Shown piece after piece: positions 5,491 to 29,266 of a stretch of 29,483 bases of DNA. The notes under the pieces are model-generated. The model saw nothing but the letters and a program-made list of their open reading frames with translations, was not told where the DNA came from and ran no database searches. This stretch comes from a virus, in the IMG/VR virus record IMGVR_UViG_3300030098_003893, positions 1-29,483 of that record. One strand, written 5' to 3'. The translations under genes and the position numbers were made by a program. Position 1 is the first letter of the stretch. Each line of letters starts with the position of its first letter.

Positions 5491-7734
5491 ATGAGAAGAA
5501 GATCACCAGTTAGGTCTGTTTTAGCGGAACGTAAAATGTTTGCGGGTGGTGGTATGCTACCTATAAGCACTCCTATGAAAAAAGAACCTTCGGGAATATT
5601 AGCCTCTTCAGAACCGTTGATAGATGCTGTTTCTCAGGAAATCCTTGCACCAATGACGGGCGGTGCAATGCCCATGGCCCAAGGTGGTATTGCACGTTTT
5701 CAGCGTGGCGGTGGTGCTATTAGTTTGGGTCAAGCTCCTGATATGGATATGTCCTTTCTTCCTGATTTTAAATCTTCTGTTGAAAGATTTAATGAAATGA
5801 TTGATTCAGGAGCTTTTAGGACGCAACCTACCGTAGCCGAAGCTGTTATTGAAGCAGCTCCTCCGCCTACGGATATGTCCTTTCTTCCTAATTTTAAATC
5901 TTCTGTTGAAAGATTTAATAAAATGATTGACTCAGGAGCTTTTAGGACGCAACCGCAAGAAAGAGAAGAAAGTGGTGCACAGCCTCCTTCTACAGAACAG
6001 CCTCTTTCTACAGATTTGACAGGAACACCATCTTTTAGGTCAAGAAGAGACATAGATGCTGATCTATCGGTTCCTTCTACAGATTTGACAGAAACACCAT
6101 TAGTTGGAATGAATATTGATGATGAATTAGTAAAACAAGAAAATGTAGATCTTGGAGGTGATGTTACTAAAAAGAAACCTTTTTCAGATGAAGTTTCAAA
6201 AAATTTAAATAAATATACTCAAAACTTAGGCGGTTTAAATGCGTATTTAGGTCAAGATCCAAAAAATATTCCTGCGAGTGCTTTATCTGATAGTATAGAT
6301 GGAATTATTGGGTCTGCAATAAAAGCGGCAAGCGGTGCTAAGTTTGATAAGGAAGCTTTTAAAAATGAAATTGAAAGTCTCTTACCTGCTGTAGAAGATG
6401 ATCCTGAAACGGAAGGCTTGTTAATAGCTATGCTAGGGGCTTCTATTATGGCTGGAAAAGATCCGAATGCTCTTGTTAATATAGGAAAGGGTGTTGAAGA
6501 AGGATTACCTGCTCTTATTAAATTTAAAAATAATAAAAAAGAAGCAGAAAGAAATCGTCAGATGACAGCAGCAAAACTTACTATTCAAGAAGGTTTGAGC
6601 AGAGATAAAGAAGTTAGAAAAGCTGTTTCTGGACTTAAAAATTTACAGACAACGTCTCAAATTAAAGAAGCAACAAGGATGCTTACTCCTAAAGATTGGT
6701 GGGTATCAGAAAGCACAACCATTGATCCTGAATTAATAGGCGGTAAGAAAGGCGATCCTGCTGTGTTTATTCCAAAAGGTACTACTTTAAATCTTAACGA
6801 AACAGCTTTTAAAAAATTAAGTGCTTTAGGTGTAAAAGCTATGCCTCTTGATAGAGGTTCATGGAAACCTAGTGACTTTTTAGATAATCAAGATACTGTA
6901 GCTAATGCTAAACACGTTAAAGCTATGAATGAATATGGAACACCAAAACAGGTAGAGGTGTTTAAACGGTTCGTAAAAGAGGGTGGATTAAAAATTAATT
7001 ATTATATTCCTAGTTATGGAGCTACTCTTGCTGGTGCTAAATCAGAAAACATGATTAATACTAGTGAACTAGATGCCTTTATGGGTGCATACAGGAATGT
7101 TCAACAACCAGCTCTTAATCTTCGAAATGATGTACGAGAAATTTTAGATTTAGTTATTAGTGACCCTAGAAAGTTTAGTGGACCAGGTCAACTTTTAGAT
7201 CAAGCTACAGATATCATTAGATCTATTCCTGGTGCAGAAGGTGTTGTTGATTATTTAGAAAGTGTAGGAGCAACTGAAACTTTAGGTTTAAGAGATCAAG
7301 CTCAAACTAAATCTTTAATTGTTCTTGCTAAAATCGCCCCTATTCTTTTGGATGAAAGTGGTAAGACTATTTCTGATGCTGATAGAAGAATGATTGCTCA
7401 GACGCTTGGTTTAAAGGCCATACCAAATGATCCTGATGATGCTTCTAAAGGATTTAGAATTGAATTAAATGCAGGTATCTTTAGAAACCCGAAACAAATA
7501 GAACTTGCTATCAGTCAAACAGAACAAGCCCTTAACGACAGACTAACAGCTATTCGAGCTGAAGCTAAAACACATTTAAGTCAATTTGGTATTCCATCCA
7601 GTGCAAAGCAAATGATGGCTTTAGAAAGAGAACAGGAGCTATTTGAAAAAGGACCTAAATTTAAAAAATTTGGAAAAGGCGAAGATCAAGTAGGTCCTTT
7701 ATCAGACGACTTTAACTTCGTAATAGGTAGTTGA
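5491..7734 (+). CDS. Large internal virion protein with duplicated segment
   Basis: A 747-residue protein beginning MRRRSPVRSVLAERKMFAGG. The first 75 residues hold short Gly-Gly patches (AQGGIARFQRGG) that recur at the N-termini of internal virion proteins in related phages. Residues about 86-155 contain a nearly perfect tandem-like duplication around DMSFLP.FKSSVERFN, and residues about 170-210 carry two copies of STDLTxTP. The remainder (about 230-740) looks helical and soluble, with Lys/Glu-rich stretches and no recognised enzyme motif. It is five bases downstream of the previous gene and one base upstream of the next, so it belongs to the same transcript. The ATG lacks a strong ribosome site, which fits coupled translation. 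The role as an ejection or tape-measure-like protein comes from context. Confidence 0.55.
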   Translation: MRRRSPVRSVLAERKMFAGGGMLPISTPMKKEPSGILASSEPLIDAVSQEILAPMTGGAMPMAQGGIARFQRGGGAISLGQAPDMDMSFLPDFKSSVERFNEMIDSGAFRTQPTVAEAVIEAAPPPTDMSFLPNFKSSVERFNKMIDSGAFRTQPQEREESGAQPPSTEQPLSTDLTGTPSFRSRRDIDADLSVPSTDLTETPLVGMNIDDELVKQENVDLGGDVTKKKPFSDEVSKNLNKYTQNLGGLNAYLGQDPKNIPASALSDSIDGIIGSAIKAASGAKFDKEAFKNEIESLLPAVEDDPETEGLLIAMLGASIMAGKDPNALVNIGKGVEEGLPALIKFKNNKKEAERNRQMTAAKLTIQEGLSRDKEVRKAVSGLKNLQTTSQIKEATRMLTPKDWWVSESTTIDPELIGGKKGDPAVFIPKGTTLNLNETAFKKLSALGVKAMPLDRGSWKPSDFLDNQDTVANAKHVKAMNEYGTPKQVEVFKRFVKEGGLKINYYIPSYGATLAGAKSENMINTSELDAFMGAYRNVQQPALNLRNDVREILDLVISDPRKFSGPGQLLDQATDIIRSIPGAEGVVDYLESVGATETLGLRDQAQTKSLIVLAKIAPILLDESGKTISDADRRMIAQTLGLKAIPNDPDDASKGFRIELNAGIFRNPKQIELAISQTEQALNDRLTAIRAEAKTHLSQFGIPSSAKQMMALEREQELFEKGPKFKKFGKGEDQVGPLSDDFNFVIGS
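5746..5954 (+). repeat. 83-bp direct repeat pair, in frame
   Basis: Two copies, 5746-5828 and 5872-5954, begin GATATGTCCTTTCTTCCT and end in ACGCAACC. They differ at only three positions by eye: two G-to-A changes that give Asp/Asn and Glu/Lys, and one silent T-to-C. The period is 126 bp (42 codons), so the frame is kept. Each codes DMSFLP(D/N)FKSSVERFN and what follows. A smaller pair of 25 bp lies downstream at 6007-6031 and 6076-6100 with one mismatch. Confidence 0.9.
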
Positions 7735-18709: not shown

Positions 18710-19282
18710 CTATTCTCCTTTAATCTTTGCTATTGTTCCAACGTGTGCGTTAAATATATCTAGATCTATTTCTTGGTTCGATTCAACTCGTTCACGTATC
18801 AACTTTTTTAATGTCATGGGTTCTACCCAAGTCTTTGCCGAAGTTTCGTATCCTTTGTTTTCAAGATCAGCAACTAAATCTTTCGCAACATTATCCTGAG
18901 TAATTCCAAACGATACACTTACATCGTTTTTAATGAAGTCACCTGCTCCGATCTCTCGAAGATGATCTAGTGCGTTTTTTTTTGCGATAGGATCTTTCGG
19001 CATAGTGCCAGATACAAAAGTTTGTAGTGATACCTTATTGCCTTCAACCTCTACTTTATCTAAATTCATTTCTGCCATTTTTGCAGGTATGTATTCATGT
19101 ACGTAACGGTCTCGGCTTTTCTTTAAAGACTTAACGGTTTTCTCTGCTACTATTATTGACTTATTTACATCCGACAAAATCCGAATCATTTCGCTTAATT
19201 CAGATCCACCTTCCGTTGTCAATTGATCAAATTTAGAAGCATCCGCTTCGATAGCTTCCCAAAGTTCTTCTTTTTCACTCAT
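18710..19282 (-). CDS. Conserved phage replication-operon protein of unknown function
   Basis: A 190-residue protein with a helical N-terminal half (ELWEAIEADASKFDQL, then a KTVKSLKKSRDRY coiled segment), the phrase IPAKMAEMNLDKVEVEGNKV, and a C-terminal part with KTWVEPMTLKKLIRERVES. I recall phage families with this order (an IP..M.E.GL..V.L..G segment followed by a V.P.TLK...RE segment), always near SSB or recombination genes, with no proven role. The ATG at 19282 overlaps the previous stop by one base (TGATG); a TTG one codon earlier is possible but unlikely. Its stop is four bases before the SSB-like ATG. Confidence 0.6.
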   Translation of the reverse strand: MSEKEELWEAIEADASKFDQLTTEGGSELSEMIRILSDVNKSIIVAEKTVKSLKKSRDRYVHEYIPAKMAEMNLDKVEVEGNKVSLQTFVSGTMPKDPIAKKNALDHLREIGAGDFIKNDVSVSFGITQDNVAKDLVADLENKGYETSAKTWVEPMTLKKLIRERVESNQEIDLDIFNAHVGTIAKIKGE

Positions 19283-19629
19283 CAACGTATCTCCTCGTCA
19301 GGGTTTAAGTTCTCAATTCCACCACCTAATAAATTTACCTTTACGGGGTAGTATATTTTTTCAATCTTATCCCACTTCAGCATATTTATTCGGCCATGAT
19401 TTACAGAAGAGGCAAGAGCAAAAGCGATACCGATTATGGCCGGGTCACCCATAGCCAATAACCAGTCATCGTCACTGTAACTCTTTAACTTTCTTCTAAG
19501 TTGCGCCACAACTCGAGACGGGTCTATGTGAACCTGATCGAATGGTGAGGCCAAAGGTTCAAGATCACCCCATTTTGAAGCCGCCACTATATTGACTCGG
19601 GGATTTTCTTGGGTAACAAAGACGCTCAT
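19282..19629 (-). CDS. Conserved phage protein, first gene of replication operon
   Basis: A 115-residue protein beginning MSVFVTQENPRVNIVAASKW. The segments RRKLKSYSDDDWLLAMGDPA, IGIAFA and LKWDKIEKIYYPVKV belong to a small conserved family I recognise from marine and rhodobacterial phages, where it also opens replication operons. No function is known to me. An open frame extends upstream to 19710, but the ATG at 19629 has a very good ribosome site (GGAGAAAG, 2 bases of AT between) and lies directly after the promoter at 19655-19683, so translation should start there. Being first in the operon, it may be an early regulator or replication accessory factor. Confidence 0.7.
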   Translation of the reverse strand: MSVFVTQENPRVNIVAASKWGDLEPLASPFDQVHIDPSRVVAQLRRKLKSYSDDDWLLAMGDPAIIGIAFALASSVNHGRINMLKWDKIEKIYYPVKVNLLGGGIENLNPDEEIR

Positions 19630-22353: not shown

Positions 22354-22820
22354 TTAGAATAAAAAATGTGTTGACCAATCTTAAAACGTTTTTCGAGGAT
22401 CTTAGACCAATCAGGACTAACCCAGTCAGCATGATAGTGTGTTGCCTTTTCAAGACCTACAATTTCTATTTCTTTCAATAACAGATTAAAAGCTATGCCT
22501 TGGGCTAAGTTCCATGAATCCTTGTCATTAGGACGTTCTGGCTTTCCATCACACCAATAACTAAACTGACAACGGTTCTTTATAGGAATGTGTTTCCAAT
22601 ACCTACCTTGTCTTACAACCCCACACACTGTATCGGGATAATTAGGATGATCAACTCTATTTTGTATGACTACTCCTACAGCTATCATACCCAATATTCC
22701 CTGATTACGAGCTTCAAAGTAAAGTGCTTCAGCTAAACAATATTGTTCGTTTGCACTAACAGCTTTTGCCGGGAACAATAGTGATAATAAAAATAACAAA
22801 GTTATGATTTTATTTCTCAT
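22350..22820 (-). CDS. SleB-type cell wall hydrolase with signal peptide (endolysin candidate)
   Basis: A 156-residue protein. Residues 1-23 are a clear signal sequence (MRNKIITLLFLLSLLF then PAKAVSA). The mature part shows CLAEALYFEARNQG (28-41), GMIAVGVVIQNRV (44-56) and DTVCGVVRQG (63-72), then CQFSYWCDG (84-92), the hallmark of the Hydrolase_2/SleB family of peptidoglycan glycosidases. Glu31 or Glu36 is the likely catalytic acid. Four cysteines (28, 66, 84, 90) may form disulfides in the periplasm. Export by Sec would allow lysis without a holin for this enzyme. The start overlaps the SET-domain gene by 11 bp. Confidence 0.88.
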   Translation of the reverse strand: MRNKIITLLFLLSLLFPAKAVSANEQYCLAEALYFEARNQGILGMIAVGVVIQNRVDHPNYPDTVCGVVRQGRYWKHIPIKNRCQFSYWCDGKPERPNDKDSWNLAQGIAFNLLLKEIEIVGLEKATHYHADWVSPDWSKILEKRFKIGQHIFYSN

Positions 22821-23127
22821 AATCTAACGTTAGCTCCTCACCCTTCTTTATATTACGCGATGTTACTAGGTTATAAATCTGACAATCATCCCAATCATGA
22901 ATCAGCTCTAAAAAACAATTTTCTTTTTCTGAATGATTTAAAAAGCCTCCAATAGGTGTTCGAATTAATCCTTTGTACATCGGCACGTTAATGTGCGTTG
23001 TGCCAAGATCAGTATCCTTTGGTATATTAACAACAGCAAATATACCAAGACCCTCAATGTCACTTTGACTGATTGTAATCTCATCAGGTAAAGGTCGATA
23101 GTAAAAGGGATTGTAAATGGGAATCAC
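22810..23127 (-). CDS. SET-domain protein (protein-lysine methyltransferase fold)
   Basis: A 105-residue protein starting with GTG at 23127, overlapping the upstream stop by four bases (GTGA). It shows the compact SET pattern: SDIEGLGIFA (22-31), GGFLNHSEKENC (60-71, with the NHS that binds the methyl donor) and NIKKGEELTLDYE (92-104, with the catalytic Tyr103). SET enzymes use S-adenosylmethionine to methylate lysine on proteins. It is short and lacks pre- and post-SET regions, as do other bacterial and phage forms. The target is unknown; host nucleoid or ribosomal proteins are possible. Confidence 0.8.
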   Translation of the reverse strand: MIPIYNPFYYRPLPDEITISQSDIEGLGIFAVVNIPKDTDLGTTHINVPMYKGLIRTPIGGFLNHSEKENCFLELIHDWDDCQIYNLVTSRNIKKGEELTLDYEK

Positions 23128-23267
23128 TCTCTGCTACCCAATGTTTCTTTGAGTAAAATTCTCAACTTATGATCCCACATCATTTTCAAATCCGGGTGAC
23201 CAGCTCTAGCTCTAGCCAGAACTATTTGATCAACTATCCTAGCAAATTTTTCTTTTATATACATCAT
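23124..23267 (-). CDS. Microprotein A, 47 residues, related to that at 24256-24393
   Basis: Read from the minus strand: ATG at 23267 (second ATG at 23264) with AGGAGA at an ideal distance; TGA at 23126-23124 overlaps the SET gene's GTG. It begins MMYIKEKFARIVDQIVLARA and ends WDHKLRILLKETLGSRE. It shares with the microprotein at 24256-24393 the order F..(I/M)(V/I)D...AR..A..PD.....W..KLR.LLK..L. This shared order and the strong ribosome site argue that both are genes. The start overlaps the end of the methyltransferase by 29 bp. Function unknown. Confidence 0.7.
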   Translation of the reverse strand: MMYIKEKFARIVDQIVLARARAGHPDLKMMWDHKLRILLKETLGSRE

Positions 23268-24195
23268 AGGTCTCCTTTATTGCTTGTCCGATTTTTTGCG
23301 CGATTTGGGGGATGATACTGTTTCCCAAGGCACGGAGTTGAGGTACTCGGTTGGGTAGCCCATCAACCAGGCGACCCACTGAGGGTTCAACTTCCCACCA
23401 CTGCTCTGCTCGGTATGACTCACCGCATCCTTCAGCTTCACGCCCCACCGTTCTCCCTTTTGATTTTTTCGGGAAAACGACCCCTTGTTTAGTTCCACGT
23501 TCTTTACCACCCCTCCCTCCGTGTCGCTTACTCTTGGAGTCGGCCACAGTTGTACTTCTGTCTCTAACCTTTTCTTCGGGTTGCCCTCTCGTATTTCCTT
23601 GCTTGATGGACCATTTGCCATTGAAACTCTTGGAGTCGGCCACAAACTCGAACCCCAACTGCCGTTGTCCCGCGTTGCCATCGAAGGAGCCATCTGGTTC
23701 GCTTTCGCTGTCGGAGTGTGCAACAATCCATAACCTTTGACGGAGGTGCGGGGCTCCGACCGAGCAAGCTGGAATATTAAACGTCCTTGTGGCGTAACCT
23801 TCGCTTTCCAAGTCAGCGAGTACTTCGTCCAAGCCCAATCGGATGAGTCCAACAACATTTTCTCCAACAACCCAAGTGGGCCGGCATTCCCTGATAAGCC
23901 TAAACATTTCTGGCCAGAGATGGCGGGGGTCGTCTTGGGCTTGCTGTCTTCCCGCTTGACTGAATGGCTGGCAAGGGAATCCTCCGCAAATAACATCGGG
24001 TCGGGTCGGGAGGTCTTCGGCTTTGACATTTTTTATATCTCCTAATACCGGGACTTCGGGCCAATGGTGTTTCAACACCGCTTGGCAGTATGGTTCGTTT
24101 TCTACAAATGATATTGTCTCAAAGAAACCAGTGGCTTCAAATCCTCTCGAGAAGCCACCAATTCCTGAGAATAAATCAAGAATGCGTAACACCAC
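23239..24195 (-). CDS. DNA (cytosine-5) methyltransferase
   Basis: A 318-residue enzyme with the C5-methyltransferase motifs in order: I DLFSGIGGF (7-15, methyl donor), IV GGFPCQPFS (71-79, catalytic Cys75), VI GENV (111-114), VIII RQRLWIV (152-158), then a polar target-recognition region rich in VADS and Lys/Arg, and X LGNSIIPQIA (290-299). It should methylate cytosine in a short site, protecting phage DNA from host nucleases; the site cannot be told. The start is a GTG at 24195 in a TAGTG junction; a TTG at 24210 is also in frame. The gene is visibly richer in G+C than its neighbours, which suggests acquisition. A second long frame lies inside it. Confidence 0.93.
   Translation of the reverse strand: MVLRILDLFSGIGGFSRGFEATGFFETISFVENEPYCQAVLKHHWPEVPVLGDIKNVKAEDLPTRPDVICGGFPCQPFSQAGRQQAQDDPRHLWPEMFRLIRECRPTWVVGENVVGLIRLGLDEVLADLESEGYATRTFNIPACSVGAPHLRQRLWIVAHSDSESEPDGSFDGNAGQRQLGFEFVADSKSFNGKWSIKQGNTRGQPEEKVRDRSTTVADSKSKRHGGRGGKERGTKQGVVFPKKSKGRTVGREAEGCGESYRAEQWWEVEPSVGRLVDGLPNRVPQLRALGNSIIPQIAQKIGQAIKETYDVYKRKIC
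23277..24029 (-). CDS. Overlapping alternative-frame ORF inside the methyltransferase, 250 residues
   Basis: A complete ATG-to-TAA frame on the same strand as the methyltransferase, in another frame. Its product has coherent segments: SVKREDSKPKTTPAISGQKC, then YSLTWKAKVTPQGRLIFQLA, two copies of LWPTPRVS, and near the end GGKLNPQWVAWLMGYPTEYL. I recall phage proteins with this same order (LTWK.K.T..GRL.FQL, WPTPT repeats, LNP.WVEWLMG.P) found next to C5 methyltransferases, but cannot check that here. Its TAA lies just before the AGGAGA and ATG of the downstream microgene, as expected for a real operon gene. No enzyme motif is recognised. It may be a genuine overprinted gene or a by-product of constraint on the methyltransferase. 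Confidence 0.45.
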   Translation of the reverse strand: MSKPKTSRPDPMLFAEDSLASHSVKREDSKPKTTPAISGQKCLGLSGNAGPLGLLEKMLLDSSDWAWTKYSLTWKAKVTPQGRLIFQLARSEPRTSVKGYGLLHTPTAKANQMAPSMATRDNGSWGSSLWPTPRVSMANGPSSKEIREGNPKKRLETEVQLWPTPRVSDTEGGVVKNVELNKGSFSRKNQKGERWGVKLKDAVSHTEQSSGGKLNPQWVAWLMGYPTEYLNSVPWETVSSPKSRKKSDKQ

Positions 24196-24263
24196 TACAT
24201 TCCTTGACAAAAACCTACAATAAAACTTCCAATCAATAAACCTATCAGTATTTCACTACCCAT
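24195..24263 (-). CDS. Single-span membrane microprotein, 22 residues
   Basis: The ATG at 24263 is preceded by AGGGAG with good spacing, and the TAG at 24197-24195 overlaps the methyltransferase GTG start. After MGSE, the chain is almost entirely hydrophobic (ILIGLLIGSFIVGF) with a CQGM end, enough for one membrane span. It overlaps the upstream microgene by 8 bp. Such a peptide could be a small membrane factor or just a leader whose translation couples the methyltransferase start. Confidence 0.5.
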   Translation of the reverse strand: MGSEILIGLLIGSFIVGFCQGM

Positions 24264-24393
24264 TGTAATTCTCCCTTAACATATTTTTTAGTAAAAAACG
24301 TAACTTATAATTCCAGATTGCTATGAAATCAGGATCCTTGGCATTGTCTCTTGCCTTGGTTAGATTATCTATCATTCTTTCAAAGTTGTGCAT
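24256..24393 (-). CDS. Microprotein B, 45 residues, related to that at 23124-23267
   Basis: The ATG at 24393 lies inside the end of the preceding zinc-ribbon gene (14-bp overlap), behind AGAGGGAGAA, and the TAG is at 24258-24256. It begins MHNFERMIDNLTKARDNAKD and has WNYKLRFLLKNML near the end. Aligned with microprotein A it keeps F, D, AR, A, PD, W, KLR and LLK. The two genes flank the methyltransferase, as if one had been duplicated around it. Probably helical; function unknown. Confidence 0.65.
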   Translation of the reverse strand: MHNFERMIDNLTKARDNAKDPDFIAIWNYKLRFLLKNMLRENYNG

Positions 24394-24544
24394 CAGGAAC
24401 TTCTCCCTCTGATTTACATTGATCACATTGTTCAATTTCTATAGTTTCAATATCAATGTCTTTATGATCCGCACACCAAAGGCTAGGCTCTAAAACAATC
24501 TTTCTCAAATATCCATTGCCATGACATACTTGACATATTTTCAT
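24380..24544 (-). CDS. Zinc-finger microprotein (CxxCxGxG type), 54 residues
   Basis: The ATG at 24544 follows GGAGGAAG, a nearly perfect ribosome site, and overlaps the previous stop by four bases (ATGA). The product begins MKICQVCHGNGYLRKIVLEP and later has EQCDQCKSEGE. The pairs Cys4/Cys7 with GNG and Cys40/Cys43 resemble one DnaJ-type zinc module (CxxCxGxG), a fold that binds zinc and often RNA, DNA or unfolded protein. Many phages encode such small zinc proteins; its partner is unknown. Confidence 0.65.
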   Translation of the reverse strand: MKICQVCHGNGYLRKIVLEPSLWCADHKDIDIETIEIEQCDQCKSEGEVPDAQL

Positions 24545-24702
24545 TTCACTTCCTCCAAGTAGTTGTTCACAAGTTTTTGAACAACTTGATTTTGAGTTAA
24601 CTTAATACCTAGCTTCTCAGACATTATTTGTTGAACCTTATTCAAGTTAGTTCGGCAAGGCACACGCAAATTAATATCTTCTTCTCTGTATTTATTTTTC
24701 AA
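24541..24702 (-). CDS. Ribbon-helix-helix-like protein with TTG start, 53 residues
   Basis: The frame ends at TGA 24543-24541, overlapping the next ATG. The best start is TTG at 24702, which overlaps the preceding stop (TTGA) and has GGAGA about seven bases before it; the only later ATG would remove half the protein. The product has the strand INLRVPCRTN, a helix LNKVQQIMSEKLG, a turn ILKT-like (GIKLTQNQ) and a helix VVQKLVNNYLEE, the order of an Arc/CopG fold. It could be a small DNA-binding repressor. Confidence 0.55.
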   Translation of the reverse strand: MKNKYREEDINLRVPCRTNLNKVQQIMSEKLGIKLTQNQVVQKLVNNYLEEVK

Positions 24703-24968
24703 ATTTTTTCTCCATCATATTTGTAAATGCCAGATACTATTTCTGACGACAGCTCATCCTCTAGTATCTCATCCGTGTCATTTCCATCGACAATGCAATA
24801 GAGCATGTAGTCGTAAACTTCGATCTTGTCATAAGACTCATGCTTGTTGTCCTTTATGTTAGTTCGAAATAAAACACGCTCCCGGATCTCAATAGTCTTG
24901 TAACCAAGAGTGGTAAAAGAACTTTGTTCCTTTTTGTCTTGTAACTTATATCTTGCTCCAATAAACAT
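24699..24968 (-). CDS. Small hypothetical protein, 89 residues
   Basis: The frame is open from 24989, but the ATG at 24968 has AAGGAGAAAG just before it and starts after the upstream stop, so it is chosen. The product begins MFIGARYKLQDKKEQSSFTT and looks beta-rich (KTIEIRERVLFRT, KIEVYDYMLYCIVDG), with an acidic end (EILEDELSSEI). No family is recognised. Confidence 0.55.
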   Translation of the reverse strand: MFIGARYKLQDKKEQSSFTTLGYKTIEIRERVLFRTNIKDNKHESYDKIEVYDYMLYCIVDGNDTDEILEDELSSEIVSGIYKYDGEKI

Positions 24969-24981
24969 AACTTTCTCCTTT

Positions 24982-25842
24982 CTAATCAATGTAGCCTTTA
25001 ACGATTACGCCATTACCATAATGACGCACGCCACCCAGTATGGACTCTTCCGTATTCACCCAGTTGTACTGGGCGTTCGCCAAGAACACCGCCTTGGCAA
25101 AACCTCTCGGTGTAGCTGAACGTATGTTCTTGGTTCTCTGAGACTTTCCCCCTGTCTTCCCGGCGACAGGAGAATAGTTCTTACCCTTCTTGGGATCCTT
25201 GCGGTCATAGACCATTGTCTCATGAGCCACGGCATTTGACCTTGGCATCCTGAACCGATTGCCAACCCACAAGCAGGTTTTCTTGCGGTAGGCATCCCTT
25301 GGCGGAATGATCTCAGGCCAACGTGGATGCACATCATCTTCAGGCAAGTAACCACCGAAGTCACATGGATCAAACTTGTAATCGGGTTTACGCCACAATC
25401 TGGACAACGCACCAATGGGGTTCTCTATGTAGTAAGAGCAGTCAAACGCATCACCAACCATGGCACAGCGTTTAACATGATCAGATGCCTCCGTCTGGAA
25501 GTCTGGATTAGCTTCGCCCTTCTTCTTCCACCACATTGCACCACTGACCGCCAGATCCGTGCATGGAGGGAAGGCTGAAAGAAAAGCAACCTTGTTGTTA
25601 TGACGGGCAAGTATTTTAAGGGAAGTCTCAGGGTCATATAAGTCAGCGTGGATGAAAAAGATATTTCCACCACCGTCACCGTCACGTTCCCAAAAGGTCT
25701 CAACTCTATCAAGACCACCCCAAAGTCCCTTCTTGTCAGGCTTGTGTTGAATGTCATAAGCGAAACATTGATAACCAGCCTCTGCCCATGGACGCAAAGC
25801 TTCACCCGTATAATCGTATAGTGAAATGACATGGTTTCTCAT
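24982..25842 (-). CDS. C5 DNA methyltransferase-like protein, divergent
   Basis: A 286-residue protein with a reduced C5-methyltransferase plan. SLYDYTG (7-13) replaces the usual DLFSG; FPPCTDLAVSGA (91-102) carries the Pro-Cys of motif IV (Cys94); YIENPIGAL (138-146) takes the place of motif VI ENV; and ATPRGFAKAVFLAN near the C-terminus fits motif X. I recall phage proteins with PPCTDLAVSGA annotated as DNA cytosine methyltransferases. It should act on cytosine in DNA; whether it adds a methyl or another one-carbon group is unknown. The ATG overlaps the previous stop (ATGA). The gene is G+C-rich compared with the virion genes (34 of 60 bases in 25261-25320). Confidence 0.7.
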   Translation of the reverse strand: MRNHVISLYDYTGEALRPWAEAGYQCFAYDIQHKPDKKGLWGGLDRVETFWERDGDGGGNIFFIHADLYDPETSLKILARHNNKVAFLSAFPPCTDLAVSGAMWWKKKGEANPDFQTEASDHVKRCAMVGDAFDCSYYIENPIGALSRLWRKPDYKFDPCDFGGYLPEDDVHPRWPEIIPPRDAYRKKTCLWVGNRFRMPRSNAVAHETMVYDRKDPKKGKNYSPVAGKTGGKSQRTKNIRSATPRGFAKAVFLANAQYNWVNTEESILGGVRHYGNGVIVKGYID

Positions 25843-26309
25843 TTAAAAGCCCTCTCATTATCATCAAGCAATTGTTTAAAACGATCCTCCAGATCTGGAT
25901 GTATCTCCAATGTCCATGAACCACCGCACTTGTGCAAAGTGTTGGCAACAACGATTCCTACATCCGTAAAAATATCTTCGCCCTTGTAGTCGAAAGTCTT
26001 CAGTTCTCTTGTAAGAAGATTATCAACCTTGCGATCTGTTTCAGAATAATCTGGATCATTCTCCCGATCAGGATGTGCATTGTAATAAGGAGATATGGGC
26101 AAAGACACCCTGACCTTTTTTATCCTGTAATCTTCTGGGTCATAAGCCTCATCCATGTCACCCTTCTTAAAAGCTTCCTCAGTCATGGCTATCATGTCGT
26201 TAATAGCCTCTTGAGCTTCCGCCCTCGTGTCATAAGCATCGACCTCCTCATCATTCAATAAATCCCAGCCGTATGTAAAGTCGTGTTCGATTACATATTT
26301 ATTGGTCAC
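25839..26309 (-). CDS. Hypothetical acidic protein, 156 residues
   Basis: Starts with GTG at 26309 behind GGGAGAAATACA and overlaps the upstream gene by 11 bp. The product begins MTNKYVIEHDFTYGWDLLND and is rich in Asp, Glu and Tyr, with the segment YDTRAEAQEAINDMIAMTEE and an end with TLHKCGGSWTLEIHPDLEDR. The start resembles small phage proteins with a Tyr-Val-Ile strand followed by an AEA.E.I helix. No catalytic motif is seen. Confidence 0.6.
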   Translation of the reverse strand: MTNKYVIEHDFTYGWDLLNDEEVDAYDTRAEAQEAINDMIAMTEEAFKKGDMDEAYDPEDYRIKKVRVSLPISPYYNAHPDRENDPDYSETDRKVDNLLTRELKTFDYKGEDIFTDVGIVVANTLHKCGGSWTLEIHPDLEDRFKQLLDDNERAFK

Positions 26310-26568
26310 TGTATTTCTCCCAAGCTTTGTCTTCCATGTCTCTAATCACATTGATCATTTCCGTTGATCCAAATTTCCTGAACCAAAGATCATCAAGGTC
26401 AACGTCCTTACCTTCGACAGTAGTAGAAATTAATTCGATAACTGGATCTTCGTCAGGTTCGCCAGCGAACTCGGTTGTCTGAGCCATGCCACGCATTCCA
26501 GCTTCAACATCTACCTCAACCATAACAACCTGTCCTGATGGTAGCTCGTATTCAAAATCAAAGGTCAT
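26299..26568 (-). CDS. Hypothetical acidic protein, 89 residues
   Basis: The ATG at 26568 follows AGGAGTAG with good spacing. The product begins MTFDFEYELPSGQVVMVEVD, beta-rich at first and helical at the end (STEMINVIRDMEDKAWEKY). It is strongly acidic, with no recognised motif. It sits three bases after the upstream gene and overlaps the downstream gene by 11 bp. Confidence 0.55.
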   Translation of the reverse strand: MTFDFEYELPSGQVVMVEVDVEAGMRGMAQTTEFAGEPDEDPVIELISTTVEGKDVDLDDLWFRKFGSTEMINVIRDMEDKAWEKYSDQ

Positions 26569-26571
26569 GAT

Positions 26572-26802
26572 CTACTCCTTCACAACTCTGTTAAAATCAG
26601 CCACACGCATCTTTCCTCTGTTACCCATAACATCGCAAAGGTACGCCCACTTGTTGCCAGACTTTGCCCACACCATGCGATTCCCCGAACCAATGCGAGG
26701 GCATTCATCGTTCAAGTGAACAACAACTTTAGTTGCACCATCAAACGTCTTCGTTTTTGGCGGTCTCTTGCCGTTGGGTAATTTAGGCATAATATATTTC
26801 AT
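26572..26802 (-). CDS. Small basic hypothetical protein, first of leftward accessory operon
   Basis: A 76-residue protein with GGAGA before the ATG. It begins MKYIMPKLPNGKRPPKTKTF and is Lys/Arg-rich, with KVVVHLNDECPRIGSGNRMV and a compact end (WAYLCDVMGNRGKMRVADFN). Its two cysteines are far apart and do not form an obvious zinc site. It could bind nucleic acid. It is the first gene after the control region 26803-27205. Confidence 0.55.
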   Translation of the reverse strand: MKYIMPKLPNGKRPPKTKTFDGATKVVVHLNDECPRIGSGNRMVWAKSGNKWAYLCDVMGNRGKMRVADFNRVVKE

Positions 26803-26810
26803 AGTATTAT

Positions 26811-26828
26811 CTCCGTAGTTGTTGACTA
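26811..26828 (-). promoter_or_regulatory. Shared leader element TAGTCAACAACT + GGAG
   Basis: Read leftward, TAGTCAACAACT (26828-26817) is followed two bases later by GGAG, the ribosome site of the 76-residue protein. An almost identical element, TAGTCAATAACT then GGAG, is at 29145-29128 before the DUF7227-like gene. Two separate leftward operons thus share the same leader sequence, which suggests a common control in RNA or DNA. Confidence 0.45.
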
Positions 26829-26849
26829 ACTATCGTGTACTTATTTCGT

Positions 26850-26878
26850 AGGTTAACTCAGCTAGATTTTAATGTCAA
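26850..26878 (-). promoter_or_regulatory. Possible promoter of the leftward accessory operon
   Basis: Leftward, TTGACA (26878-26873) is a perfect -35 box. After 17 bases comes TAACCT (26855-26850), which shares only three of six positions with TATAAT. Transcription would start near 26843, about 40 bases before the first ATG. The weak -10 box suggests activator need or a slightly different position. Confidence 0.45.
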
Positions 26879-27008
26879 GAATATATTACCACTGACCATG
26901 GTACACGGTTCATGGTTGCCCCGGAGAATGTGGTGTTCGTTGCGTTCGTCTCTATATACAGTCAATTTGAAAAAAAGTTTTTAAAAAGTAAATTTTTTAT
27001 CAAAAAAA

Positions 27009-27120
27009 GTGTAAAAGTGTAACCAGTACCTAAAAACAGTACTTAACTTATTGAAATATATAAATACTACTCGTTACACTACTCGTTACACTTCGTTACA
27101 AAACAGTATGTTTCGTTACA
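27009..27120. repeat. TCGTTACA cluster with inverted GTGTAA words (iteron- or operator-like)
   Basis: TCGTTACA occurs at 27071-27078, 27083-27090, 27093-27100 and 27113-27120, spaced 12, 10 and 20 bases, close to whole helical turns. The inverted core GTGTAA is at 27009-27014 and 27017-27022. An A+T-rich block precedes the cluster. Same-face spacing is what a cooperative DNA-binding protein, such as an initiator or repressor, would need. Confidence 0.6.
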
Positions 27121-27174
27121 CTTTTAGTATCGTTTTCTTACCGTAGTCAGATCTCATCTTGAAGAGATTGCTTT

Positions 27175-27205: not shown

Positions 27206-27793
27206 ATGAAAAAACGAATCGATACTAAAGCCGAAGAGATCGAAGAAGCTCACGGACGAAAGCTAACGAACAGACAAAAAGAGTTTGCTAAACATTATGT
27301 AGATGGAGTTAATTCCAATGCAGGTTGTGCTAAGTTAGCAGGTTATTCAAACAGAGATGGTAACGCTCGTATACAAGCGCATAAACTTTTAGATGCCAGC
27401 TTGTTTCCTCATGTTGCAGAATATATAGCTGAGTTGAGAGAGGATAGAGAAAAGCGTTATGGTGTTACTCTCATGGGTCAGCTTAAACGATTAAGAGAAC
27501 TATCCATGAATGCGGAAGAGGCAGGACAATTCTCGGCGGCGATTAATGCTGAGAAAACTAGATCAGCTTTAGGTGGTCTTACTATTGATAGAAGAGAGAC
27601 AAATCACTATCACGCTATCGAAAATATGGACCGTCAGGAGATAGAATCCAGACTCAAAGAACTTAGGAAGTCACACCCGCATGCTTTCGTAGATGCAGAA
27701 TATGAGGTCATAAATGAGTCAGAAAGCAGAGACACTTCTTTGGAACAGAATAAAGTCAAAGATACCTCCAAGTTGGAACATCACACGGATTGA
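27206..27793 (+). CDS. terS: Terminase small subunit
   Basis: A 195-residue protein. Residues about 18-75 are the Terminase_2 N-terminal DNA-binding helix-turn-helix: LTNRQKEFAKHYVDGVNSNA followed by GCAKLAGYS and ARIQAHKLL. Then come a helical oligomerisation region (VAEYIAELREDREKRYGVTL, MGQLKRLRELS) and an acidic tail. Small terminases form rings that recognise the packaging site, often within or near their own gene, and load the large subunit. The large subunit is not in the window. Its 3' end overlaps the nuclease gene by 80 bp. The GTCGGG-rich segment begins about 210 bp downstream. Confidence 0.88.
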   Translation: MKKRIDTKAEEIEEAHGRKLTNRQKEFAKHYVDGVNSNAGCAKLAGYSNRDGNARIQAHKLLDASLFPHVAEYIAELREDREKRYGVTLMGQLKRLRELSMNAEEAGQFSAAINAEKTRSALGGLTIDRRETNHYHAIENMDRQEIESRLKELRKSHPHAFVDAEYEVINESESRDTSLEQNKVKDTSKLEHHTD

Positions 27794-28205
27794 AAATCGT
27801 TACGGTGGAGGAGTTCCAGACGTTCATATATGCGCGGAGGCCATTCCCTTTTGGATTGAACTTAAAATAACTAAAACTAACGCAATAAATATATCTGCTC
27901 ATCAAATTGCTTGGAATTACGCCTATTGTAAATCTGGAGGTGTAAGTTTTTACTTAGTACACCCCCTCTCTTCCCCCCACCTATATTTGTTTGACGGGCT
28001 TCATGGTCGGGAGTTGGTGAAGTCGGGACTTCGAGGAGTGGACCTTGGTTCGGGGTCGGGTGTTAAGCCATTGTGGTCGGGGGACAGTGAGTCGGGGTTG
28101 GTGGTCGGGATGTTAGAGGTTGCCAGAGGTCGGGTCGGGGATCGGGTCGGGTCTGGTTTGGATCCTTGGCCAGGGGTCGGGGTTTATGGTAGTTTTAAAA
28201 AGTAG
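27714..28205 (+). CDS. PD-(D/E)XK nuclease (VRR-NUC or resolvase-like) with GTCGGG-derived tail
   Basis: A 163-residue protein. The first 85 residues form a compact nuclease: Glu27, GGGVPDVHI (31-39, Asp36), FWIELK (46-51, Glu49, Lys51) and SAHQIAWNY (61-69, Gln64), the full PD-(D/E)XK signature. VRR-NUC and Holliday-junction resolvase-like phage enzymes have this plan. It may trim or resolve replicated DNA for packaging. The last 70 residues (VDLGSGSGVKPLWSGDSESG and on) are low-complexity Gly/Val/Ser/Asp, coded by the GTCGGG repeats, and do not look like part of the fold. GAGGT precedes the ATG; it overlaps the terminase gene by 80 bp. Confidence 0.8.
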   Translation: MSQKAETLLWNRIKSKIPPSWNITRIENRYGGGVPDVHICAEAIPFWIELKITKTNAINISAHQIAWNYAYCKSGGVSFYLVHPLSSPHLYLFDGLHGRELVKSGLRGVDLGSGSGVKPLWSGDSESGLVVGMLEVARGRVGDRVGSGLDPWPGVGVYGSFKK

Positions 28206-28267
28206 GACCCCAACCTCTGGTGGGGGTCGGGGTCCATTGACTAGGCACGGAGCGCAACCTAGTCGGG
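28006..28267 (+). repeat. GTCGGG array next to the terminase gene
   Basis: Twelve copies of GTCGGG, all on the plus strand, start at 28006, 28022, 28055, 28076, 28091, 28104, 28129, 28134, 28146, 28176, 28226 and 28262. Spacing is irregular. The first ten lie inside the nuclease gene's 3' part; the last two lie in the hairpin region after it. The rest of the window has very few copies apart from 29197-29266 and a pair at 24000-24010. Confidence 0.9.
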
Positions 28268-28380: not shown

Positions 28381-29121
28381 TTAATAATCTCTTACTACAA
28401 AACCCGTTTTGTCTTCCAATGCTTTTTTGCCTTTAGGCTCTAATCCGACAATCACGGGTGAAGGGTCCAAGTGTCTAAGGTCATGCTTTAACCCGTCAAT
28501 GACCTTATGACCCATAAAAGTTTTTGGCATTCCGTTGCCGAAAACAACTGCCACATTAAAACCAGCTTTCAAAACTTTTTCGGCTTCCGCCTTGTTAGTT
28601 TCCGATAAGCTAAAAGTTAAGTGATAGTTGCTTGGGCGTTTTGGATCAAGAACCCGCTTCATGCTTTTGGTGTAATCCACAAATTGGACATTCGGAAATA
28701 ATTCTGCGATTGATTTTCCGCTGTCCGTTTTGATCTTTTCAAAGGCAAGGTCTGTTGATCCGTTTGGCCGAACACATAGTTTAAGCTTATTCTTAACCGA
28801 TTTTTTTACTAGGTCTTTAACGTGGTCGGTCATTTCAGATAAAAAAGCTTTTCTATCATTCATGAAATACTCGGCTTTTCTTATTCGGCTTTCACGAACA
28901 TTGTTCGTGCCGTTTTCTAGATCCTTAACAAATGAAGCTTGGCCACTATACTTGCCAAGGCACAAAGACTTGCAACCCTCACTTGCATTCGGGCAAAGAT
29001 TGCCCACGCCACCCGTAGTGTGTGGGGCCATGTAGTTAATGGCATTTAAATAACCATACTTATTAGCCTTAATAGCTTTCGGACTATCAACAGAAAAGAA
29101 ACGCTTAAATTGTTTTTTCAT
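28381..29121 (-). CDS. DUF7227 / GP88-like phage protein
   Basis: A 246-residue protein. The N-terminal part holds YLNAINYMAPHTTGGVGNLC then CPNASEGCKSLCLG (Cys43, 50, 54); the middle has KLCVRPNGSTDLAFEKI and NVQFVDYTKSMKRVL; the end has YHLTFSLSE, FNVAVVFGNGMP, VIDGLKHDLRHLDP and VIVGLEPKG. I recognise this as the phage family called GP88 or DUF7227, widespread from mycobacteriophages to marine phages, with no proven activity. The conserved cysteines suggest a metal or cluster site and the rest a barrel-like enzyme fold; both are inference. AGGAG lies before the ATG at 29121, and a leader element shared with 26811-26828 precedes it. Confidence 0.75.
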   Translation of the reverse strand: MKKQFKRFFSVDSPKAIKANKYGYLNAINYMAPHTTGGVGNLCPNASEGCKSLCLGKYSGQASFVKDLENGTNNVRESRIRKAEYFMNDRKAFLSEMTDHVKDLVKKSVKNKLKLCVRPNGSTDLAFEKIKTDSGKSIAELFPNVQFVDYTKSMKRVLDPKRPSNYHLTFSLSETNKAEAEKVLKAGFNVAVVFGNGMPKTFMGHKVIDGLKHDLRHLDPSPVIVGLEPKGKKALEDKTGFVVRDY

Positions 29122-29196: not shown

Positions 29197-29266
29197 GTCG
29201 GGATAAAATAAATTGAGCTGGCGGTCGGGTCGGGACCAGGTCGGGTCGGGACCAGGTCGGGTCGGG
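29197..29266 (+). repeat. Tandem 16-bp GGTCGGGTCGGGACCA repeats, G-quadruplex-like
   Basis: Units at 29223-29238 and 29239-29254 are identical (GGTCGGGTCGGGACCA) and a third, shortened unit is at 29255-29266. A single GTCGGG precedes at 29197-29202. Seven GTCGGG copies in 70 bases, all on the plus strand. Six GGG runs with alternating 2- and 8-base spacers could fold as a G-quadruplex. The region 29122-29366 holds no gene apart from these repeats, the leader and the terminator. Confidence 0.9.

Follow-up and report, generated by a model that had tools for sequence, protein, structure and literature searches.

The closest described systems are the pac sites of headful phages such as SPP1, P22 and P1, which lie beside the gene for the terminase small subunit (TerS) and upstream of that for the large subunit (TerL), and which contain short repeated words; the pac site of P1, for example, contains several hexamers. 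The oriented word reported here shares this position and make-up, but it extends over 5–12 kb with 20–40 strictly oriented copies, it is purged from the same strand elsewhere, and its reading by terminase is putative; the pac sites known to us are far shorter than such a domain. Chi sites are likewise oriented and short, the Bacillus subtilis Chi being a pentamer. In lambdoid phages Chi can be locally dense near the packaging site (PMC3784561), yet it is read by the host and is beneficial, whereas the present word belongs to a single phage clade spanning 34–60% G+C and shows same-strand purging outside its domain. KOPS, the words read by FtsK, offer a third parallel in being short, oriented and G-rich, and a moving motor would likewise be the reader of the word here; unlike KOPS, it occupies a confined domain, and a mirror-image polarity is absent from the other arm. 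In the open-access library searched, the word as such appears in only three papers, none of them on phages.

We analyzed the whole of a 29,483-base record of an uncultured virus, hereafter the window (Table 1). Its DNA polymerase shares 45–48% identity with the enzymes of pelagiphages of the HTVC023P type and of their relatives. The TerL of this phage is encoded beyond the window end; in a near-identical contig (G001) it lies approximately 4.4 kb past TerS.

Table 1. Coordinates of the word arrays, neighboring genes and other features in the window
Feature	Position	Strand	Description
Tandem duplication	5745–5977		126 bases, near-perfect, 1.8 copies; within a structural gene
DUF7307 (Pam3 gp33-like) protein	18710–19285	-	
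Left shoulder of the domain	22633–26867	+	Sparse TCGGG, from about -4.6 kb to TerS; shoulder also found in relatives
Small SET-domain protein	22810–23127	-	
C5 methyltransferase ORF	23239–24210	-	Pfam match covers the first half only
250-aa ORF	23277–24029	-	Out-of-frame overlap with the C5 methyltransferase ORF, either through overprinting or because the second half is frameshifted
Small array	23996–24010	+	TCGGG three times, within the oppositely coded gene for the C5 methyltransferase
Short words just 5′ of TerS	27005–27130		Repeated CGTTACA(C), with GTGTAA words in the opposite sense; possible promoter/operator or further short-word array
TerS, terminase small subunit	27206–27793	+	PF03592 / phrog_51
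Nuclease-like protein	27714–28205	+	phrog_2165, without Pfam match; predicted PD-(D/E)XK/VRR-NUC type (GVPD..ELK motif, by inspection); array in 3′ part
Main array	28006–28267	+	12 GTCGGG (14 TCGGG); 3′ part of nuclease gene and convergent intergenic gap behind it; same place in relatives
GP88 gene (PF17338)	28381–29121	-	Between main and second arrays; adjoins the array in many relatives too
Second array	29197–29266	+	7 GTCGGG, intergenic; GGTCGGGTCGGGACCA about 2.8 times (three copies)

In the main array, the first-pass annotation had counted twelve GTCGGG copies, all on the plus strand, and had placed the first ten (28006–28181) within the nuclease ORF; both statements proved exact. The array does lie downstream of TerS, not directly so as had been claimed, since it starts 213 bases past the TerS end. 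The further claim that the array had reshaped the nuclease, leaving 70 low-complexity residues at its end, was partly right only: the last approximately 20 residues vary among relatives and look disordered, while residues ~97–142 are conserved and modeled with helices, albeit in a weak structure model (mean pLDDT 53). The ten words in this gene are split 4/4/2 among the three frames. Within the 3′ part of the gene, the word bases are better conserved than the rest in almost all diverged relatives (e.g., 0.94 vs. 0.83). Two plus-strand groups had been overlooked, namely the second and the small array. Over the whole window, GTCGGG occurs 22 times (21 plus, 1 minus) against 3.7 expected, a number that none of 100 dinucleotide shuffles reached. 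Plus-strand TCGGG in the left shoulder lies at 22633, 23469, 23576, 23996, 24001, 24006, 24056 and 25382, with two minus-strand copies only (26063 and 26684).

The core of the word is TCGGG, as altering one base removes most or all of the bias and single-base variants are nearly unbiased. GTCGGG is present in the domain 843 times forward and 44 times in reverse; its first G is replaceable by T or A, and an extra G is preferred before it. Both TTCGGG and ATCGGG are enriched in the domain as well, and TTCGGG is avoided elsewhere. G-runs preceded by TC number 1095 forward versus 151 reverse, with other G-run contexts near balance. The words are irregularly spaced (5, 6, 10, 11, 13, 15, 16, 27 bases and so on) and form many separate clusters.

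Oriented arrays of this word are a conserved feature and not a local repeat. Among the 21 loci identified by a nuclease-based search, those extending past the array position show the array at that point, and additional arrays on the same strand are present in most of the longer loci. A scan for the DNA pattern alone returned at least 119 stretches; among those listed, most of the strongly oriented ones with less than approximately 60% G+C also encode a TerS or TerL homolog on the strand that bears the words. The relatives are mostly fragments; the position profile was computed from 37 non-redundant TerS lineages. In these, the forward word reaches 11.8 per kb in the first kilobase from the TerS start, 2.8–5.6 per kb in kilobases 2–5 and 1.2 per kb in the sixth; it is weaker at -2 to -6 kb (0.3–0.9 per kb) and does not exceed about 0.25 per kb beyond approximately 7 kb, so that forward words are confined to about -6 to +6 kb of TerS with their peak right behind it. 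The reverse word stays at 0–0.6 per kb at all positions. The only relative with a complete circular genome (G008; 55,769 bases with a 91-base end repeat) has all of its 31 forward words in the TerS–TerL interval. A second sample, drawn independently via TerL, contained 526 forward versus 34 reverse words upstream of TerL (191 kb) and 8 forward versus 90 reverse from TerL onward (511 kb). Contigs outside this TerL family mostly had just one tandem run, the very run selected by the pattern scan. Because repeats break assemblies, contigs with ends inside arrays were left out as evidence for genome ends.

Word-bearing TerL proteins range down to approximately 60% identity, on contigs of 34–60% G+C, and the persistence of the word over this range favors a phage-encoded reader. 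In the TerL tree, which has some open or long branches, these proteins are set apart from pelagiphage-like clades, save for two exceptions with little upstream sequence. A host search via TerL across cellular genome contigs gave no match.

Outside the domain, the word is depleted from one strand. We shuffled synonymous codons within each gene, keeping protein and codon usage fixed, and found in structural genes 27 forward TCGGG versus ~149 expected and 3 forward GTCGGG versus ~41, while the reverse words were near expectation (48 vs. 41.8; 171 vs. 184). No other of the 1024 pentamers is avoided as strongly as TCGGG in these genes (log2 ratio -2.4, the next being -1.0). Early genes 7–24 kb from TerS are transcribed in the opposite direction, and there it is the antisense TCGGG, on the TerL strand, that is scarce (8 vs. 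36.7 expected), the sense copy being at 34 versus 29.5. In genes on the other strand at -7 to -1.5 kb of TerS, GTCGGG is enriched instead (23 vs. 9.6). As the avoided copy is on the TerL strand whatever the gene direction, avoidance is a property of the DNA strand and not of the mRNA. Pooled z-scores are indicative only, since homologous genes are not independent, and it is the single-genome counts outside the domain that carry the argument: observed versus expected, these were 5 versus 22.6 in G008, 4 versus 11.9 in G009, 9 versus 26.7 in G010, 0 versus 5.3 in G002 and 1 versus 8.4 in G004. The window, at 3 versus 4.3, alone has too little power to show avoidance. Part of what the first-pass annotation had named as refuting, a word equally common and unbiased along the genome, is contradicted: it is confined to one strand of the TerS–TerL region, and the same strand avoids it elsewhere, an outcome strongly in favor of a signal. 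By the same codon shuffling, sister clades do not have such a lack of TCGGG in their structural genes.

There is weaker evidence that sister phages without GTCGGG have other oriented words in the same gap. Upstream of TerL, the HTVC027P group has GGCTTG at 145 forward versus 12 reverse and GCTTGC at 146 versus 18, and the 023Pt group has GCTCGC at 65 versus 7. The pelagiphages HTVC027P and 023Pt_psg01 and their relatives resemble the present clade in a TerL 60% identical to that of G008 and in an oriented word, GCTTG or GCTYGC, in the gap; they differ in lacking GTCGGG, in a TerS inverted relative to TerL, in having no codon-corrected avoidance of their own word, and in a single-genome signal that is not top-ranked. 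GCTTG had at first looked avoided in the structural genes of pelagiphages, but this effect was gone under codon shuffling. In 023Pt_psg01, an unannotated nuclease-like ORF right after TerS (L156:14949–15395) resembles the window nuclease and has a GCTYGC array at its 3′ end, both preceding a GP88-like gene; judged by eye, this array looks to be at the place homologous to that in the window. When HTVC027P, HTVC023P and 023Pt_psg01 were ranked by sliding window, the gap was outscored by low-complexity coding sequence elsewhere, and the sister-clade words therefore rest on pooled counts and position. A de novo word search in HTVC023P returned A-rich words only. Planktothrix phage Pag-Yong1 (TerL 44% identical) has GTCATAC at 10 forward and 0 reverse in the corresponding gap; nine intergenic copies upstream of TerL (L178:18115–18467) are all on the TerL strand, a possible parallel in a cyanophage.

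The enrichment and avoidance of one orientation, next to a neutral reverse word, suggest a reader passing in a fixed direction, and we favor terminase as that reader because of the position in the terminase gap and the persistence with the phage clade. Our leading interpretation, which we hold tentatively and which stops just short of being probable, is that the arrays belong to a long, oriented, pac-like region that fills the terS–terL interval and would serve as a packaging address; like pac sites, they lie beside terS and between terS and terL. The phage terminase, as TerS and/or the moving TerL motor, would recognize [G>T,A]TCGGG on the TerL strand in a single orientation, and the word would thereby mark the site and direction of concatemer cutting and packaging. 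Since the motor would travel one way along the genome, same-strand words elsewhere would be misread and hence purged, whereas the reverse word would not be seen. The Terminase_6C nuclease domain of TerL also speaks for this reading. Its length sets the domain against known pac sites, however, and plain headful packaging would tolerate stray starts, so strong avoidance would need premature cuts at stray words. Two features of the TerS sequences count against the reading as well: the alignment pointed to no residue with a clear link to the word, and the word-bearing TerS proteins of low G+C are only 30% identical. The neighboring nuclease may have a part in such a mechanism. A bolder form, possible though rather unlikely, is a multi-kilobase, one-way tape in which terminase would sense the density of oriented TCGGG to find its cut site, with the rest of the strand kept word-free and sister clades using other words at the same place. 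The first-pass annotation had offered a packaging site, a translocase-orienting word or a recombination hotspot, a list that is still good, with packaging now favored.

The recombination option would be Chi-like: a helicase–nuclease, whether a host enzyme of RecBCD/AddAB type or a phage-encoded one, would read one-strand TCGGG from a terminase-made end and stop degrading, leaving the concatemer protected or recombined near the packaging site. The words here are indeed short, over-represented and in one orientation, and there is precedent in Chi being very numerous between origin and packaging site in some lambdoid phages and avoided by RecBCD-inhibiting ones (Bobay et al., PMC3784561). Against this, a protective word gives no obvious reason for same-strand purging elsewhere, and unrelated contigs lack dispersed arrays; a host-read word should also vary with the host, yet this one is kept across the G+C range, a point that is not decisive. 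We regard a Chi-like role as unlikely, although with replication it is the main rival to packaging. Of relevance here, gene order makes the DUF7307 protein the likely equivalent of the phage DSL-LC04 protein named “putative DNA ends protecting protein.”

Alternatively, the domain could hold a replication origin, with the words serving as oriented primase starts, iterons or one-way fork barriers in unidirectional replication. The window phage has a gene for an AEP-type primase of its own, phage primases with sequence specificity are known (NrS-1, T7), and one-way fork barriers would account for the one-strand avoidance as well. The T7 primase site, 5′-(G/T)2GTC, is nevertheless a misfit, because TTCGGG has no GTC and yet is domain-enriched and avoided elsewhere; the irregular spacing in many separate clusters is unlike iterons, and surplus primase sites elsewhere should do no harm. 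A replication signal is accordingly doubtful in our estimation.

A segregation or translocase-polarity word read by an FtsK-like host motor would match KOPS in being short, G-rich and strictly oriented (PMC2680272), but the words are confined to ~12 kb instead of being distributed along the arms, and where opposite polarity on two arms would be anticipated, the reverse word remains at background to either side, which makes this reading very improbable. We give equally little credence to a G-quadruplex, an RNA-level element or neutral slippage of a G-rich repeat. (GGGTC)n could form quadruplexes and tandem units at 5-base spacing suggest growth by slippage, yet G-runs without a preceding TC have no clear strand bias; the early genes avoid the antisense copy, at odds with selection on mRNA sense; single-strand folding of the second array, covering hairpins but not G-quadruplexes, gave no structure beyond shuffles; word bases are better conserved than their neighbors; and neutral slippage leaves the avoidance elsewhere unexplained. 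Escape from type III restriction through strand bias, as in T7, whose EcoP15 sites are all in one orientation (36 of 36) and escape cleavage by EcoP15I (PMC3874151), is least credible of all, since it needs one orientation only, whereas here the reverse word is at expectation beside forward arrays, and it leaves the arrays unexplained.

How the genome is recognized in packaging is entirely unknown for many marine phages that have not been cultured. Under the packaging-address reading, or one of recombination or replication, a word that is dense in the terminase gap yet purged from a single strand of the remaining genome provides a purely computational handle on the signals concerned. The same pattern of enrichment and purging can be searched for in other phage groups, and it makes both the reader and its direction testable.
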